DNA of 64,000 nucleotides from Phyto melanocephala (lineage: Eukaryota; Arthropoda; Insecta; Diptera; Rhinophoridae), in NCBI GenBank assembly GCA_941918925.1, contig OW799237.1, positions 11,079,201 through 11,143,200 of the forward strand, in the 5' to 3' direction. The notes under the pieces are model-generated. The model did no database searches. It had not been told where the DNA came from and saw only the letters and a program-made list of their open reading frames with translations. Shown one piece after another: positions 6,309 through 53,529 of this stretch. A program made the translations under genes and the position numbers. Position 1 is the stretch's first letter. Each line of letters starts with the position of its first letter.

Positions 6309-6311
6309 TTA

Positions 6312-6733
6312 CACTGTGCTAGTTGAAAAAACAGACAAGCCGGGCACCTAGCGTTTTAACATAATTCGGGTACGCTGAATCCAGTGGTGCCCACGGTTTT
6401 TTAAGATTGGCTCTGGTTTTCGAGATATACCGTTATTTCGAAAATGGAGGAGGTTGCACAACATATGTTCGCGTAACTCAAAAACGCTTTAGCTTATTGA
6501 AAAAACCGAAATTCCGCAATAAAATTTCCTTCAAGAAAAGTAAAACTTTTTTCTAATATTCGCAGTCGTTTTAGAAAAATAATTTTTTTTTTGAAAAAAA
6601 AATTAATATTTTTATCAAAATTTCGAAATTTTTATTTTTTTAAAATTCATAAAAAATTGAAAAATTCAGCTAGGCTTCTAATTTTTTGCAGACATATAAA
6701 AAACAAAGCTGCAAACAAAACAAGCCATAAATA
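6312..6733 (+). repeat. Left terminal inverted repeat
   Basis: This arm pairs with 9631-10073. The outer 8 bp (CACTGTGC) match, the next roughly 14-25 bp differ in length and sequence, and from GACAAGC inward the two arms stay nearly identical through long A/T runs to GCAAACAAAACAAGC near 6711-6725. Such long arms can form a hairpin in single strands. Confidence 0.85.
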
Positions 6734-7134
6734 ACACTGCTCGACAAAAAATAATTTTTTTTCTTCCCGTTAATTAAAACTATGTGGTCTATGTGGATTT
6801 TGATGCGCTGAACTCAAATCCGTAATCGGTTTTTTTCCATCAGATCGGTATTTTTTTTATGGGCGTGCCAATTTTTTCCCCTAAATTAGGTTTCGGTTTT
6901 CAAAAGTAAAACCCCAGAAGATGTGTTTTCTCTATTTCTTATCGTTTTGGAATTATTTAAAAATTAATGGAGATAAAAAAAATTTTTCGTGCCAAATTCG
7001 TAATATTTTTCAATTTAAAAATATAATTAAAAAAAATATAAAGCAAATATTCAACATTTTGCATTTTTTTCTGAGAACTACTTATCTTAAAAATAAAAAA
7101 AGCCGCAAGCCATAAAAATCGGTTAAAAAATTTA

Positions 7135-7343
7135 GATTTTATTGTCAATTTACCGCAGGTACCCAATATTGTAATGCAACCAGCCTTACATATGATACAG
7201 CATTTCGTTAGGTGAGCATGTAATGGAACTGAAGTACAACGGTATTTTGTATGGTTCTTAGAATTAAAAATTATAACATAGTATTTTTCAATTACCTGTG
7301 AATTCAAATTATTGGGTACCTGCGATAAATTGACAATAAAATC
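7135..7343. mobile_element. Nested TA-flanked MITE (209 bp)
   Basis: The arms are 34 bp: 7135-7168 starting GATTTTATTGTCAATTTA and 7310-7343 ending TAAATTGACAATAAAATC. They match at 33 of 34 positions. TA dinucleotides flank both ends (7133-7134 and 7344-7345), the expected duplication for Tc1/mariner-type insertion. It sits inside the larger transposon, about 100 bp upstream of its TATA box, so it arrived later. No coding capacity. Confidence 0.85.
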
Positions 7344-7442
7344 TACACCTGGAAAAGTTAGAAATATTATTCGTCCTGGGTTTTTTTTTACAAAACATGG
7401 TCATGAAGGTCTCGACTGGTACTTTGATTAAAACAATTACAG

Positions 7443-7471
7443 TATAAATAAGAGTTCCTCAACCCCTTCAC
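7443..7471 (+). promoter_or_regulatory. Candidate TATA box and initiator of the transposase gene
   Basis: TATAAATA at 7443-7450 is followed by CTTCACTGTC, giving an initiator-like TCACTG whose A (7470) lies 27 bp from the first T of the TATA box. That spacing fits insect core promoters. The first in-frame ATG is at 7529 and a better-context ATG at 7562. Predicted from sequence only. Confidence 0.55.
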
Positions 7472-7528
7472 TGTCATATGGAAAGTGCTTGCGAAAGTGA
7501 TTAGTGAATTTTAAAGCCTCTGACAGTC

Positions 7529-9256
7529 TTGTATCTAAACAGTTATATTGAAATATCTAAGATGGAGGCGTGTAAAAAGTTTAATTACTTTTGTTATGTG
7601 TGTGGGAAATATAAAAATATGCCAAGTCGCCGTAAAATCACTACTGAAACAAGTACCTTGTATGAATCATATTTTTCTTTAAGGGTTATATATGGTAAGA
7701 GTTGGACACCATCAATAGTGTGTACACACTGCATTTACCATTTAAATAAGTGGGAAAAAAATGGAGACGCCATGCCATTTGGTGTTCCAATGATTTGGAG
7801 AGATCCCATAGTTCATGTTGAAGATGAGTGTTATGCGTGCATAAATTATACAGCGGGTATAAACAGAAGAAAAATGACTTATATGTCTTATACTGAAACA
7901 GCATATGCTCGATTTCCGCTGCCACATTCTGATGAAATTACTGTTCCGGGTAGCCATATACCAACAGAACATATTCCCTCAATAATTCATTCTGTTGAAG
8001 CGGATAGCCCAGCTACTTCAATGTATCAACCGTCATGCATCACGGTTCCATGCAGTCACAATGAAATCACGCAAGATCGTCTGGATATAATGGTACGGCG
8101 TCTAAAATTATCTCAAAGACAGAGCATTCTCTTGGCAAAAGAGTTAAAACGAGCTAATATTTTAGCACCAGGTGTACAAACATACGGGGCTATCAATCGC
8201 CATAAACGATTTACGACTTTTTTTAAATCTATTGAGAATAATTCTATTGCGTATTGTACTGACATCCGCGGATTGGTTTTAACAATGCAAAATGAATATA
8301 ATCCTGGAGATTGGCGCTTATTCATTGATTCTTCCAAAAGTAGCTTAAAAGCAGTTTTGCTACATGTCACTAATTTAAAAAGTCCTATTCCGATAGCACT
8401 TAGCACAAATACTAAAGAGACATACGCATCAATGAAAAAAATAATACAGTTAATTAAATATGAAGACCACAAGTGGAAAATATGCGCAGATTTAAAAGTG
8501 GTAGCTCTTTTAAGAGGCATGTAATTGGGCTATACTAAAAATATGTGCTTCATGTGCTTATGGAATACGCGTTTCGATGGCGACCAGTACAATACACGGG
8601 ATTGGGCTTTACGTGAGGAAAGCAGATTGCATAGAAACAATGTTATTGAATTACCACCTGTGTCGATGGAAAAGATTTTGCTTCCTCCACTCCACATCAA
8701 ACTGGGTATTGTAAAAAATTTTATAAAAGCATTGAGCCCAGATGGTGTTGCTTTTACTGAATTGCACCGAATTTTTCCACGATTAAGCGGCATGAAAGTA
8801 AAAGAAGGTATGAACTCTAACTACTTTATTAAATTAGATTTATATTTCATTTCATAATGTTTCTATTTTACAGGAATTCTTAATGGACCGGACATTCGCC
8901 GTCTTATGAAGGACCATCAATTTGAGGTTGCATTGAATGATATCGAGCTATTGGCCTGGAATTGTGTGAAATCAGTAATAGAAAATGTATTAGGAAATCA
9001 TCGGTCTGAAAACTGGCGAATTTTAATCAAAAATATGCTAACCGCATTTAAAAACTTAAACGTTAGAATGTCATTGAAAATACATTTTTTGCATTGCCAT
9101 GCCGAAAAATTTAATGAACAATCACCAGCCGAGTCTGATGAACATGGCGAGAGATTTCACCAAGTAACAGCCAGGCTCGAACACTGGTATAGCGGCAAAC
9201 AACTTGATTCGCTATTAGGGGATATTTGTTGGAATCTGCAGGAGGAAGAAGAATAA
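7529..9256 (+). pseudogene. Zinc-binding, DDE-like transposase, one nonsense codon
   Basis: Two exons (7529-8807 and 8874-9256) encode a protein of about 550 residues. The likelier start is Met12 at 7562 (AAGATGG context). Residues C22/C25, C65/C68 with H71, and C101/C104 form a zinc-binding region (CYVC, CTHC, CYAC). The core holds LFIDSSKSSLKAVLL (Asp267) and ICADLKVVALL (Asp321). Then follow GYTKNMCFMCLW, LPPLHIKLGIVKNFIKAL, FLGNH-like VLGNH, MSLKIHFLHCH and SDEHGERFHQ. I recognise this motif series from an uncharacterised protein family common in arthropods and other metazoans; reading D, D and E as a catalytic triad is inference. A TAA at 8522-8524 replaces the expected codon between RGM and LGYTK; a CAA-to-TAA change would explain it. 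Everything downstream stays in frame, so the copy looks only just dead. It is the sole gene of the long-TIR element. Confidence 0.85.
8808..8873 (+). other. Intron of the transposase gene (66 bp)
   Basis: The donor GTATGA at 8808 and acceptor TTTTACAG ending at 8873 follow the GT-AG rule. The acceptor is preceded by a T-rich tract. Splicing joins KVKEG to ILNGPDIRRLM and restores the family motif across the junction. Without splicing, exon 1 would read through to a stop at 8857. The length is typical of short insect introns. Confidence 0.85.
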
Positions 9257-9263
9257 ATTTCTA

Positions 9264-9269
9264 AATAAA
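9264..9269 (+). terminator. Poly(A) signal of the transposase gene
   Basis: AATAAA lies 8 bp after the TAA stop (9254-9256), a plausible cleavage and polyadenylation signal within the element. Confidence 0.55.
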
Positions 9270-9342
9270 AACTACTTAACAACAAAAAATTTTTAGTTTG
9301 GTTATATAAAAAATTCAAAAATTTCATCTTTTCTGAAAAAAT

Positions 9343-9672
9343 CAAAAGTTGTAGACAGACTTTAATCACAAATAGCTTATTTTGCACCTGCGCAACTTTG
9401 TTTTCATTCCCATCATTTGTTTCTAAGGCCTAGGATTCACTCCTAGGGGGATAAAATGTATGACCGACCTCCAATGTTTTTTGTTCTTAACATTTTCTTA
9501 AATTATACTTTCCCTTTATCACCATCCCTTAGGGGGGCCCCAATACAAATGTTGCGTTTTATGAAATTCTTAGATTAATTAAAATTTGTCGACTTTTGTG
9601 AATAAAATCAAAAGTTGCAAACATATTTTAATTGTTTATAGCTTGTTTTGTTTGCAGCTTTGTTTTTTATAT
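9343..9672 (+). repeat. Diverged internal direct repeat
   Basis: ATCAAAAGTTG, an ACATATTTTAAT-like tract, AATAGCTTATTTTG and CAACTTTGTTTT at 9343-9403 recur as a related series at 9608-9672. The second copy overlaps the inner edge of the right terminal inverted repeat. The stretch between them has no recognised gene. The repeat may be a duplicated subterminal site. Confidence 0.5.
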
Positions 9673-10073
9673 GTGTGCAAAAAATTAGAAGCCTAGCTGA
9701 ATTTTTCAATTTTTTATGAATTTTTAAAAAATAAAAATTTCGAAATTTTTATAAAAAAATTAATTTTTTTTTCAAAAAAAAAATTATGTTTCTAAAACGA
9801 CTGCGAATGTTAGAAAGAGGTTTTACTTTTCTTAAAGAAAATTTTATTGCGGAATTTCGGTTTTTTAAGTTTTTTCAATAAGCTAAAGCGTTTTTGAGTT
9901 ACGCGAACATATGTTGTGCAACCTCCTCCATTTTCGAAATAACGGTATATCTCGAAAACCAGAGCCAATCTTAAAAAACCGTGGGCACCACTGGATTCAG
10001 CGTACCCGAATTATGTTAAAACGCTAGGTGCCCAGCTTGTCACGAAAAAAAAGTGTCAATTTCATGCACAGTG
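9631..10073 (-). repeat. Right terminal inverted repeat
   Basis: Reverse complement of 6312-6733. The inner edge is near GTTTATAGCTTGTTTTG and the outer end is GCACAGTG followed by TTA. The two arms differ by scattered substitutions and by a different-length AT-rich spacer near the tip. Confidence 0.85.
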
Positions 10074-10076
10074 TTA

Positions 10077-24697: not shown

Positions 24698-25230
24698 GGG
24701 TCCGCCATCTAACGTTTTTTTTCAACTAGTTATTATTTCGTGAATGGTAACACTTAGCTCAGGTCTGATTTGGCAGATAATTAGTTTTATCCTTCCGCTG
24801 AACGAATATGGTTCTTGAACAACGCTGGAAAATATTACGACATTACTTTAGCCGATTTTGCAAAAAAAAAAATCAGATGAAGCTCTTTTTGATTTTGGCG
24901 GGTATATAAACAAGCAGAATTGTCGCATTTGGGGCACAGAAAACCCGCACGCATACATTGAAAAGCCGATACACCCAAAACCTCTCACTGTTTGGTGCGG
25001 ATTTTTGTCTGGAGGCATAATTGGGCCATTTTTCTTTGACAATGGGCAAGAAGTGGCCGTAGTCAATTGCGCTTGTTATCGGGCCATGTTGAACAAATTT
25101 TTGTTCACACAAATTAAAGAAGAGGATATTGCAAACATTTTGTTTCAACAGGACGGCGCTACGTGCAACACAGCTGAAGCTACACATTTTTATAGCATTT
25201 AAAAAAAAAAAGAAGTTATTTGGCGGACCC
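24698..25230 (+). mobile_element. Internally deleted mariner-like element (533 bp)
   Basis: The ends are GGGTCCGCCATCTAAC at the left and, reverse complemented, GGGTCCGCCAAATAAC at the right. TA precedes the left end; TT follows the right, so the duplication is imperfect. Inside, the first codons of a transposase remain, then a deletion joins them to the catalytic region. Everything after the second catalytic Asp block is also lost. It could only be moved by a related enzyme from elsewhere. Confidence 0.8.
24808..25203 (+). pseudogene. Deleted DD41-type mariner transposase
   Basis: From ATG at 24808 the frame reads MVLEQRWKILRHYF, a plausible transposase N-terminus. After a deletion and a frame change it continues SDEALFDFGGYINKQNCRIW, ENPHAYIEKPIHP, LTVWCGFLSGGIIGPFFFDN, YRAMLNKFLF and ILFQQDGATCNTAEATH, then a stop. 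The first catalytic Asp (SDEA) and second (QQDG) are present; the third and the C-terminus are gone. The C-terminal reading frame is otherwise open for about 110 codons, so decay is modest and the deletions are probably the main lesion. Confidence 0.8.
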
Positions 25231-41693: not shown

Positions 41694-42606
41694 CCGGGTG
41701 TTTTTTTCAGTGGTATAGAACTTCGAATTGAAATAAAACACGAGAAAATCGTTTTAATGACCATAAATTTGGCTTTATTGGAAGGATAATTTTATGCCAT
41801 TAATGTTTAAATATGATTTCAGGCATGTGGCCACCGCGACTGGTTCGAATAAAGCCAATTCTACAGGTCCAATTTTTAACCACTTTTTCGAGAATATGGG
41901 GCCGTATGTCGGCAATAACGCCACGAATGTTGGCTTCCAATTCCCCTAACGTTTCTGGTTTGTAGACGAGCGACTTCACATATCTCCAAAGAAAATAATC
42001 CAATGGTGTCAAATCACACGATCTTGGTGGCCAATTGACAGGTCCATTCCGCGAAATTATGCGCTCATCGAATGTTTCCTTCAATAAATCGATTGTGGCG
42101 TGCGCTGTGTGGCATGTAGCGCCGTCTTGTTGGAACCACAACTCATCCACATTCATGCTATCCAATTCGGGAACAAAATAGTCGGTTATCATGGCTCTAT
42201 ACCGGTCTCCATTAACGGTAACTGCCTCTTCAGCATTATTTCGGAAGAAGTATGGCCCAATGACTCCACCAGCCCATAGAGCACACCAAACAGTCAGTTT
42301 TTGTGGATGTAATGGCGTCTCAAGGGTCGCATGTGGATTCTCTTCACTCCAAATGCGGCAATTTTGCTTGTTGACGTAGCCATTCAACCAAAAATGAGCC
42401 TCATCACTGAACAAAATTTTGCGATGAAAATCAGCATCGAGATCAATCTCATTTTCGGCCCATACACCAAAATCACGACGCATTGCATGGTCATGATGAA
42501 ATGGCAAACCAAACTGAACATAAATGACATTAGAGTTGCCAGATTTGACCACAAAATGCCAGTTTTATCTCTATTCGAAAAACAAACCTGTAAAAAAAAC
42601 ACCCGG
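41694..42606 (-). mobile_element. DD41D mariner-like element, internally deleted (913 bp)
   Basis: Ends are CCGGGTGTTTTTTTCAG at 41694 and, reverse complemented, CCGGGTGTTTTTTTTACAG at 42606. Weaker similarity continues for another 15-20 bp. TA flanks both ends (41692-41693, 42607-42608). The transposase lies on the minus strand. Compared with a full-length element of about 1.2-1.3 kb, roughly 350-400 bp covering the N-terminal DNA-binding part are missing. Both ends are intact, so it could still be moved by a full-length relative. Confidence 0.92.
41800..42552 (-). CDS. DD41D mariner transposase, N-terminally deleted
   Basis: An open frame of 250 codons. Mariner homology starts at about residue 22 (HAMRRDFGVWAE) and runs to the normal C-terminus RGGHMPEIIFKH. 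The catalytic residues are Asp50 (LFSDEAHFWLNGYVNKQNC), Asp143 (WFQQDGATCHTA) and Asp185 (RSCDLTPLDYFLW), with 41 residues between the last two: a DD41D triad. Also present are NPHATLETPLHP, VTVNGDRYRAMI and VNWPPR. The first ~120 residues of the family, with the two helix-turn-helix motifs, have been deleted, and the present start codon lies in former upstream sequence. There is no stop in the catalytic domain. It could be translated, but without the DNA-binding part it is not expected to transpose; it might act as an inhibitor of related enzymes, which is speculation. Confidence 0.9.
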   Translation of the reverse strand: MVKSGNSNVIYVQFGLPFHHDHAMRRDFGVWAENEIDLDADFHRKILFSDEAHFWLNGYVNKQNCRIWSEENPHATLETPLHPQKLTVWCALWAGGVIGPYFFRNNAEEAVTVNGDRYRAMITDYFVPELDSMNVDELWFQQDGATCHTAHATIDLLKETFDERIISRNGPVNWPPRSCDLTPLDYFLWRYVKSLVYKPETLGELEANIRGVIADIRPHILEKVVKNWTCRIGFIRTSRGGHMPEIIFKH

Positions 42607-52245: not shown

Positions 52246-53529
52246 AGGGGTGTCTCCAAATGCTTTTTTACATTTTAAAATGTCTCCCAAATCTAAAATA
52301 CATTTTATTAGCGTTATGGAGAAAAATTTCTAATCTTTATTATGCAAAAAAACCAAAGTTTCAAATTTTATTTTCTCTTGCAAAATTTCGCACTTTTTTC
52401 TTAACGCTTTGCATTAGACGTTGGACACAGGTTTTGCCAAAGTGTTTGATAGCTTCTTTCCAAATAAATCCAATTTTTTTTACATTTGCAGAAGCTTTGA
52501 ACTTTGTTCTTAGGTACTGCTTAATTATAGCCCAATAGCGTTCAATTGGCCTTAGCTCTGGACAATTAGGTGGATTCATATTTTTCGGCACAAAATTTAT
52601 TTTGTTGGCCTCATACCACTCAAGGACGTTTTTGCTGTAGTGGCAGCTTGCCAAGTCGAGCCAAAACAGTGGAGGTATATTGTGGCTTCTGTCTAATGGT
52701 AATACAGCCTTTTTCAGGCACTCATTAATATAAAATTGGCTGTTCATTGCACGATTCACAATAATTGCCTTTGAAGTTTTCCCACATGTACATATTGCTT
52801 GCCATATCATATATTTTTTGGAGAATTTTGAAATCTTTTTATACTTAAATTTATCGGAAACATTAGCTCTTTTATTAGAAACATAAAAACCCTGACCAGG
52901 AAGCTCTGAATAGTCAGCCTTACAAAAGGTTTCATCGTCCATTAAAATACATCCATTAAAATTATTTAATTTGTGACGTAGCAACTGTCTTGCTCTTATT
53001 CTTGCCGTTTTTGTTCCTTTTTCGTTTCGGCTTGGAGCTTTCATGACTTTGAATGAATGTTCTTAAATTTTCTTTATCCGTTCTACAAGCGACTGCGAAA
53101 TATTTAGTTTTCGTGCGATATCGCGAATGGAAATGTTTGGATTTTGCTTTCAAAGTACCTTCACCTTTTTAACGATTTGAGGATTCCTAAAACCACGAGA
53201 CCCTCCACCTTTCTTGTGCTTAATAGACAAGTCTATTTTGAACTTAGAAATAACGTTACGAGCAGTCTGTCTGGACACTTTTGCTCGTTGCGCAACTTCA
53301 GCGTAAGAAAGTAGTTTTTTTTCATTATAAATATCCACAATATTTTTTCTCACTTTTTATCTTTTTGACGACATTTTAAATACGGATTAAATAATTTGAA
53401 TAAACTTATTAACAAAGTATTGTTGACACTTATAACTATCATAGAGTGGAACGAAAAAAAATTAATTATATAATAATTGTTTGCGTAGTGCCCTGTAAAA
53501 AATGTAAAAAAGTATTTCGAAACACCCCT
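52246..53529 (-). mobile_element. DD37E Tc1-like transposon (1284 bp)
   Basis: The ends are AGGGGTGTCTCCAAATGC at 52246 and, reverse complemented, AGGGGTGTTTCGAAATAC at 53529, each continuing TTTTTTACATTTT. TA flanks both sides (52244-52245, 53530-53531). The length and single minus-strand gene between short inverted repeats are as expected of a full-length Tc1-like element. The transposase has two stop codons but no large deletion. Confidence 0.92.
52361..53353 (-). pseudogene. DD37E Tc1-like transposase, two nonsense codons
   Basis: One frame of about 330 codons runs from Met at 53353 to the stop at 52361. Residues 1-67 hold the first helix-turn-helix (SYAEVAQRAKVSRQTARNVI) and a GGGSRG linker. 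After a TGA at codon 68 comes the second (NPNISIRDIARKLNISQSLV), then a TAA at codon 97, then KAPSRNEKGTK. The catalytic domain is open: Asp140 (LMDDETF), Asp233 (FWLDLASCHYS) and Glu271 (CPELRPIERYW), with 37 residues between the last two. A DD37E spacing is known from mosquito ITmD37E-type elements; closer assignment needs a search. The stops fall only in the DNA-binding half, so the copy is inactive but recent. Confidence 0.9.

Follow-up and report, generated by a model that had tools for sequence, protein, structure and literature searches.

Structure of the element and its gene

The 64,000-nt stretch analysed here (the window) is taken from contig OW799237.1 of Phyto melanocephala (assembly GCA_941918925.1) and contains at 6312..10073 on the plus strand a transposon of 3,762 bp, which very probably belongs, as a defective member, to a young, multi-copy family of cut-and-paste DNA transposons of the Chapaev3 type (CMC group). 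The left end starts with the tip CACTGTGC (6312..6319, plus strand); the same tip is found on the minus strand at the right end (10066..10073), where the plus strand reads GCACAGTG. Each of the two 8-mers occurs only once on the plus strand of the window. The transposon is flanked by the target-site duplication (TSD) TTA at 6309..6311 and 10074..10076 (unstranded). The left TSD is preceded by A, a context of A before TWA which recurs in other copies; the right TSD is preceded by the element's own G and followed by T. Long inverted arms are located at 6334..6734 (plus strand) and 9632..10041 (minus strand), and their alignment gave 388 identical positions in 401 columns with a single 9-bp gap. 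The stretches between tips and arms are unlike in sequence and length: the subterminal spacer, measured from CACTGTG to GACAAGC, comprises 15 nt on the left (6319..6333, plus strand) and 25 nt on the right (10042..10066, minus strand). Judged by the tip 8-mers and the flanking TTA, the boundaries given in the initial annotation are exact, and the inverted repeats of about 400 bp, the tips and the TTA duplications described there are borne out.

A single spliced gene, as annotated initially, is predicted between the ends. Exon 1 (7562..8807, plus strand, ATG at 7562) is followed by a GT-AG intron of 66 bp (8808..8873, plus strand) and exon 2 (8874..9256, plus strand). The predicted spliced frame has 543 codons including the end stop (542 amino acids, AA) and is interrupted by one in-frame stop at 8522..8524 (plus strand). 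This stop is private to the window copy, being absent from all 20 other near-full-length copies, each of which has sequence at this position. Because no full protein is made, the window copy could move only with the enzyme of another copy. Exon 1 encodes three Cys pairs, D256 (8327-8329), D310 (8489-8491), C329/C332 and the LH motif (H378). Exon 2 encodes H486/H491, forming H(4)H, and the DEHGE motif, the two Glu of which are E505 (9140-9142) and E508 (9149-9151). The motif series noticed before, CYVC, CTHC and CYAC followed by FIDSSK, CADLKV and DEHGERFH, was found completely in the window protein; D267 and D321 of the initial annotation are D256 and D310 when numbered from the ATG at 7562, and its Glu is E505 or E508. 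The three open pieces of the window gave no Pfam match above cut-off.

Copies in the host genome

The 739.75-Mb assembly (9 contigs) was scanned using 188 bases from position 6313 (5' end) as query. Of 1,735 first-look candidates, 40 were scored, and 43 matches were listed, the window's own copy on contig C5 being outside this list; the sample is biased to perfect left ends and to contigs C1-C3. The observation is beyond chance: among the 43 listed matches, 40 show 100% identity with the query. All 40 identical places were fetched, each as a 4.6-kb stretch, and both ends were found in 30 of them; for the remaining ten, the right end was not found within the stretch (truncated, interrupted or altered tip). 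The duplication is identical on both sides in 29 of the 30 two-ended copies (exception TTA/TTT) and reads TWA in 28 (one CAA pair), with A before it in 30 and T after it in 29. A perfect TWA duplication with both flanks is present in 27 copies and, in addition, in the window copy. Other genomic copies with the same ends, for which a check had been proposed, thus exist.

Two-ended copies are 475 to 3,776 bp long, and therefore internally deleted forms exist. The 21 copies of 3,664-3,776 bp, including that of the window, have a median pairwise divergence of 1.1%. Among 25 other copies longer than 3.1 kb, the 66-bp intron with GT and AG is found in 23, and the full 543-codon frame together with the GT-AG intron in six. 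The frames of L024 and L034 are open but shorter, and the rest show a frameshift, stop, deletion or splice defect, L048 being misaligned. Purifying selection was dropped as support, dN/dS (the ratio of non-synonymous to synonymous substitution rates) being about 1 among the six intact copies.

A search for an empty site had also been proposed initially. The joined flanks of L035 match the L027 stretch with 87% identity and ungapped at the junction (one of 31 flank pairs compared with the fetched DNA), and this stretch is probably a paralogous site without the element. The match belongs to a repeat family rather than to the orthologous locus, and one of the three bases found there deviates from the L035 duplication. 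Flank matches of L010, L019 and further ones of L035 across the junction (70-73%) were gapped, of low complexity or too low in identity and were not used.

Copies L039 and L040 (G000:C1, near 72.57-72.58 Mb) are 7 kb apart, have identical match tables, are among the ten copies for which the right end was not found within the stretch, and each have another end just outside; a local duplication of nested copies is likely. An internal inverted repeat at 7133..7345 (unstranded) resembles a miniature inverted-repeat transposable element, with 36-bp arms (97%) 141 bp apart and TA at the outer ends. This insert seems older than the transposon burst, because its arms were matched in six of the first eight fetched copies (L001-L006; not L007 and L008). 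The right half of the transposon also contains a direct repeat of about 90 bp (73%) at 9312-9404 and 9577-9666.

Protein family and classification

With E values up to 1e-3, a protein database search yielded 1,562 relatives. None of the 120 relatives listed has a precomputed Pfam domain; those with a name are called 'uncharacterized', 'hypothetical' or 'unnamed', and their source species include Contarinia nasturtii, Brassicogethes aeneus, Mythimna loreyi and Helobdella robusta. Conservation was counted in alignment A1 of 64 relatives, with the rows having a residue at the position as denominator. The six N-terminal Cys are invariant (64/64), and the pairs are likely to bind zinc. The first D is found in 64/64 and the second in 63/64 relatives, the two Cys of C(2)C in 63/63 and 64/64, LH in 64/64 and the His of H(4)H in 55/58 and 56/57 with a spacing of 5 in 57/57. 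For a relative, a RAG1-core-like RNase H fold is predicted over about 350-370 residues, with RAG1/Transib at the top of the list; a weak RT_RNaseH Pfam match (E ≤ 0.1) was obtained for 3 of the 64 relatives. The predicted fold and the conserved D, D and E speak for the DD-E triad suggested initially. Since both Glu of DEHGE are nearly invariant (57/58 and 56/56), conservation alone cannot pick the catalytic one; E505 is preferred because E962 of RAG1 would align with the first Glu. A bounded mobile element with a transposase of predicted RNase H type, invariant Cys pairs and like-ended copies is supported by these data.

The very probable placement in Chapaev3 was made by published feature descriptions. 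This group was described in 2007-2008 in Repbase Reports by Kapitonov and Jurka, as cited in PMC4411706. According to the description in PMC4079192, Chapaev elements end in CAC/GTG and their transposases have the motifs C(2)C, LH and H(4)H, TWA is duplicated between A and T in every Chapaev3 element its authors examined, and a gene of two exons is given for two of the families. The element shows 5'-CAC...GTG-3' termini, a TWA duplication with A/T flanks, C(2)C, LH and H(4)H, and a DDE triad with a predicted RNase H fold. No named Chapaev3 protein was found in the viral contig scans (P0007, A1), the genome contig scan, the viral fold library or among the 120 listed of 1,702 P0045 protein-search matches. 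A literature search with motif strings gave no paper, and one terminal inverted repeat pattern gave 0 matches in viral contigs. The earlier expectation that a functionally undescribed family would gain a function was not upheld, as tips, TSD, motifs and fold are those of Chapaev3 as far as described in PMC4079192 and PMC4411706. The element is of a kind known before and reveals no new function; new are the host's own family and a bounded element for the unnamed proteins.

It is very unlikely that the family forms a sister lineage of Chapaev3 that is separate and so far undescribed within the wider CMC/Transib (CMCT) group. This would fit a length and an intron position unlike those of the published Merrow and Garfield families, and open pieces in the window without a Pfam match at cut-off; however, the TSD, its A/T flanks and the three motifs agree with the published features of Chapaev3, and a family of 1,562 proteins would hardly have been overlooked by Repbase. 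The chance of a Transib or RAG-like (RAGL) transposon is slimmer still, since the 3-bp TWA duplication of 28/30 copies contradicts the 5 bp stated for these elements in PMC7204232. A 5-bp duplication was not looked for separately, but the bases preceding the two TSDs differ, with A on the left and the element's own G on the right. A second gene of RAG2L size is missing among the listed open frames of the window, and the identity is 11-14% for chains of RAG1, RAGL and Transib.

PIF/Harbinger elements duplicate TWA as well and have a Harbinger-type transposase plus a Myb-like second protein. The duplication fits but is not distinctive, and this assignment is of negligible probability: the CAC/GTG tips, C(2)C...H(4)H and the RAG1-like core are CMC features, RAG1/Transib come first in the fold list, and only one gene was seen among the listed open frames. 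That a domesticated host gene lies between repeats by chance would agree with the single gene and its intact splice sites, but is hardly credible and contradicted by the many copies sharing ends and TSDs, the stop codon private to one copy among 21 and the dN/dS of the intact copies.

Elsewhere in the window, a 233-codon open frame at 52361-53062 (minus strand) matches DDE_3 (E 8e-08) and is a remnant of a Tc1/mariner-like transposase. Frames at 41800-42564 (minus strand) and 24852-25202 (plus strand) contain 'QQDGAT' motifs, presumably mariner-type transposase remnants as well; they gave no Pfam match at E 0.01.

Unequal ends and relation to RAG1 and Transib

The transposase is a distant relative of RAG1, the protein which rearranges antibody genes. 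By analogy with RAG1/Transib, it would bind both ends via its N-terminal Cys-rich domain and the core, and cut beside the CAC tips by an active site composed of the two Asp D256 and D310 and one of the Glu in DEHGE, putatively E505. C329/C332 and H486/H491 may jointly hold a structural zinc, comparable to C727/C730 and H937/H942 of RAG1. The TWA duplication would then arise as the transposon is joined, with a stagger of 3 bp, to an ATWAT target.

The N-terminus weakly resembles the ZAD (zf-AD) of insect zinc-finger transcription factors. A zf-AD match was obtained for 15/64 relatives at E ≤ 0.1 (P0007 with 20 bits, cut-off 28) and, in a second set, for 13/73 at E ≤ 1 and 0/73 at 0.01. PMC4411706 describes an N-terminal Chapa zinc domain of Chapaev3 common to the RAG1 N-terminus. 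RAG1 chain 21wb_A aligned to the N-terminus with Cys and His in register at a weak E of 0.99. With a second profile, the RAG1 chain had an E of 1.7 and ranked 4 of 4, below unrelated chains, and with P0109 alone it was not found. RAG1_imp_bd was detected in 3/73 at E ≤ 1 (best 0.0064) and does not appear in the family listing of the 64 relatives in A1. RAG1 is missing from the N-terminal fold lists, an absence which excludes nothing. Plain RAG1 homology of the N-terminus was set aside, as E values are near 1, the second profile ranked unrelated chains higher and P0109 alone did not find the RAG1 chain.

The left spacer is 15 nt long in 31/31 elements (window included) and the right spacer 25 nt in 28, 24 nt in one and 23 nt in one. 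L043 has left-type sequence at both ends (tip CACTATGC on the right), while the other 30 are left-right pairs; internally deleted copies retain the unequal ends. Since identity among the copies is about 99% and their left end was the basis of selection, the asymmetry may reflect shared descent only. A spacer of 12 is paired with one of 23 in some Transib elements, like in RAG signals (PMC8355894). In a tentative and rather doubtful reading, Chapaev3 and RAG1 are colinear cousins, and the 15- and 25-nt spacers of the present element, about one helical turn apart, would follow a 12/23-like pairing rule outside Transib/RAG. Likeness of the tip to a recombination signal heptamer was not counted, because at least three of the four bases after CAC match with a chance of 5%. 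Clues to how RAG1 and insect transcription factors evolved may be sought in the ZAD-like N-terminus and in the unequal ends.

For the 120 relatives listed without informative name or precomputed Pfam domain, the annotation can be Chapaev3-type transposase rather than host gene, and a bounded, multi-copy, recently active element is now available for a very large protein set. With its near-identical intact copies, the element is a candidate for a functional Chapaev3 transposon and a simple system in which RAG1-like DNA cutting could be studied.

The Chapaev3 families described in PMC4079192 (Merrow, Garfield, Conan) share with this element the tips, TSD context, motifs, DDE and small internally deleted copies. 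The transposase has 542 AA compared to 556 AA in Garfield_BM, the element 3.76 kb compared to 0.3-3.4 kb in Table 1 of that paper, and the intron follows about residue 415, in contrast to about residue 78 in the published families. With the Transib/RAG1 core, the transposase shares the order D, D, C(2)C, H(4)H, E, the CAC at the ends and, for RAG1, a D-to-C spacing of 19. Transib/RAG1 differs by 107 instead of 53 residues between the two D and by a TSD of 5 instead of 3 bp, and a RAG2 partner was not seen here among the listed open frames.
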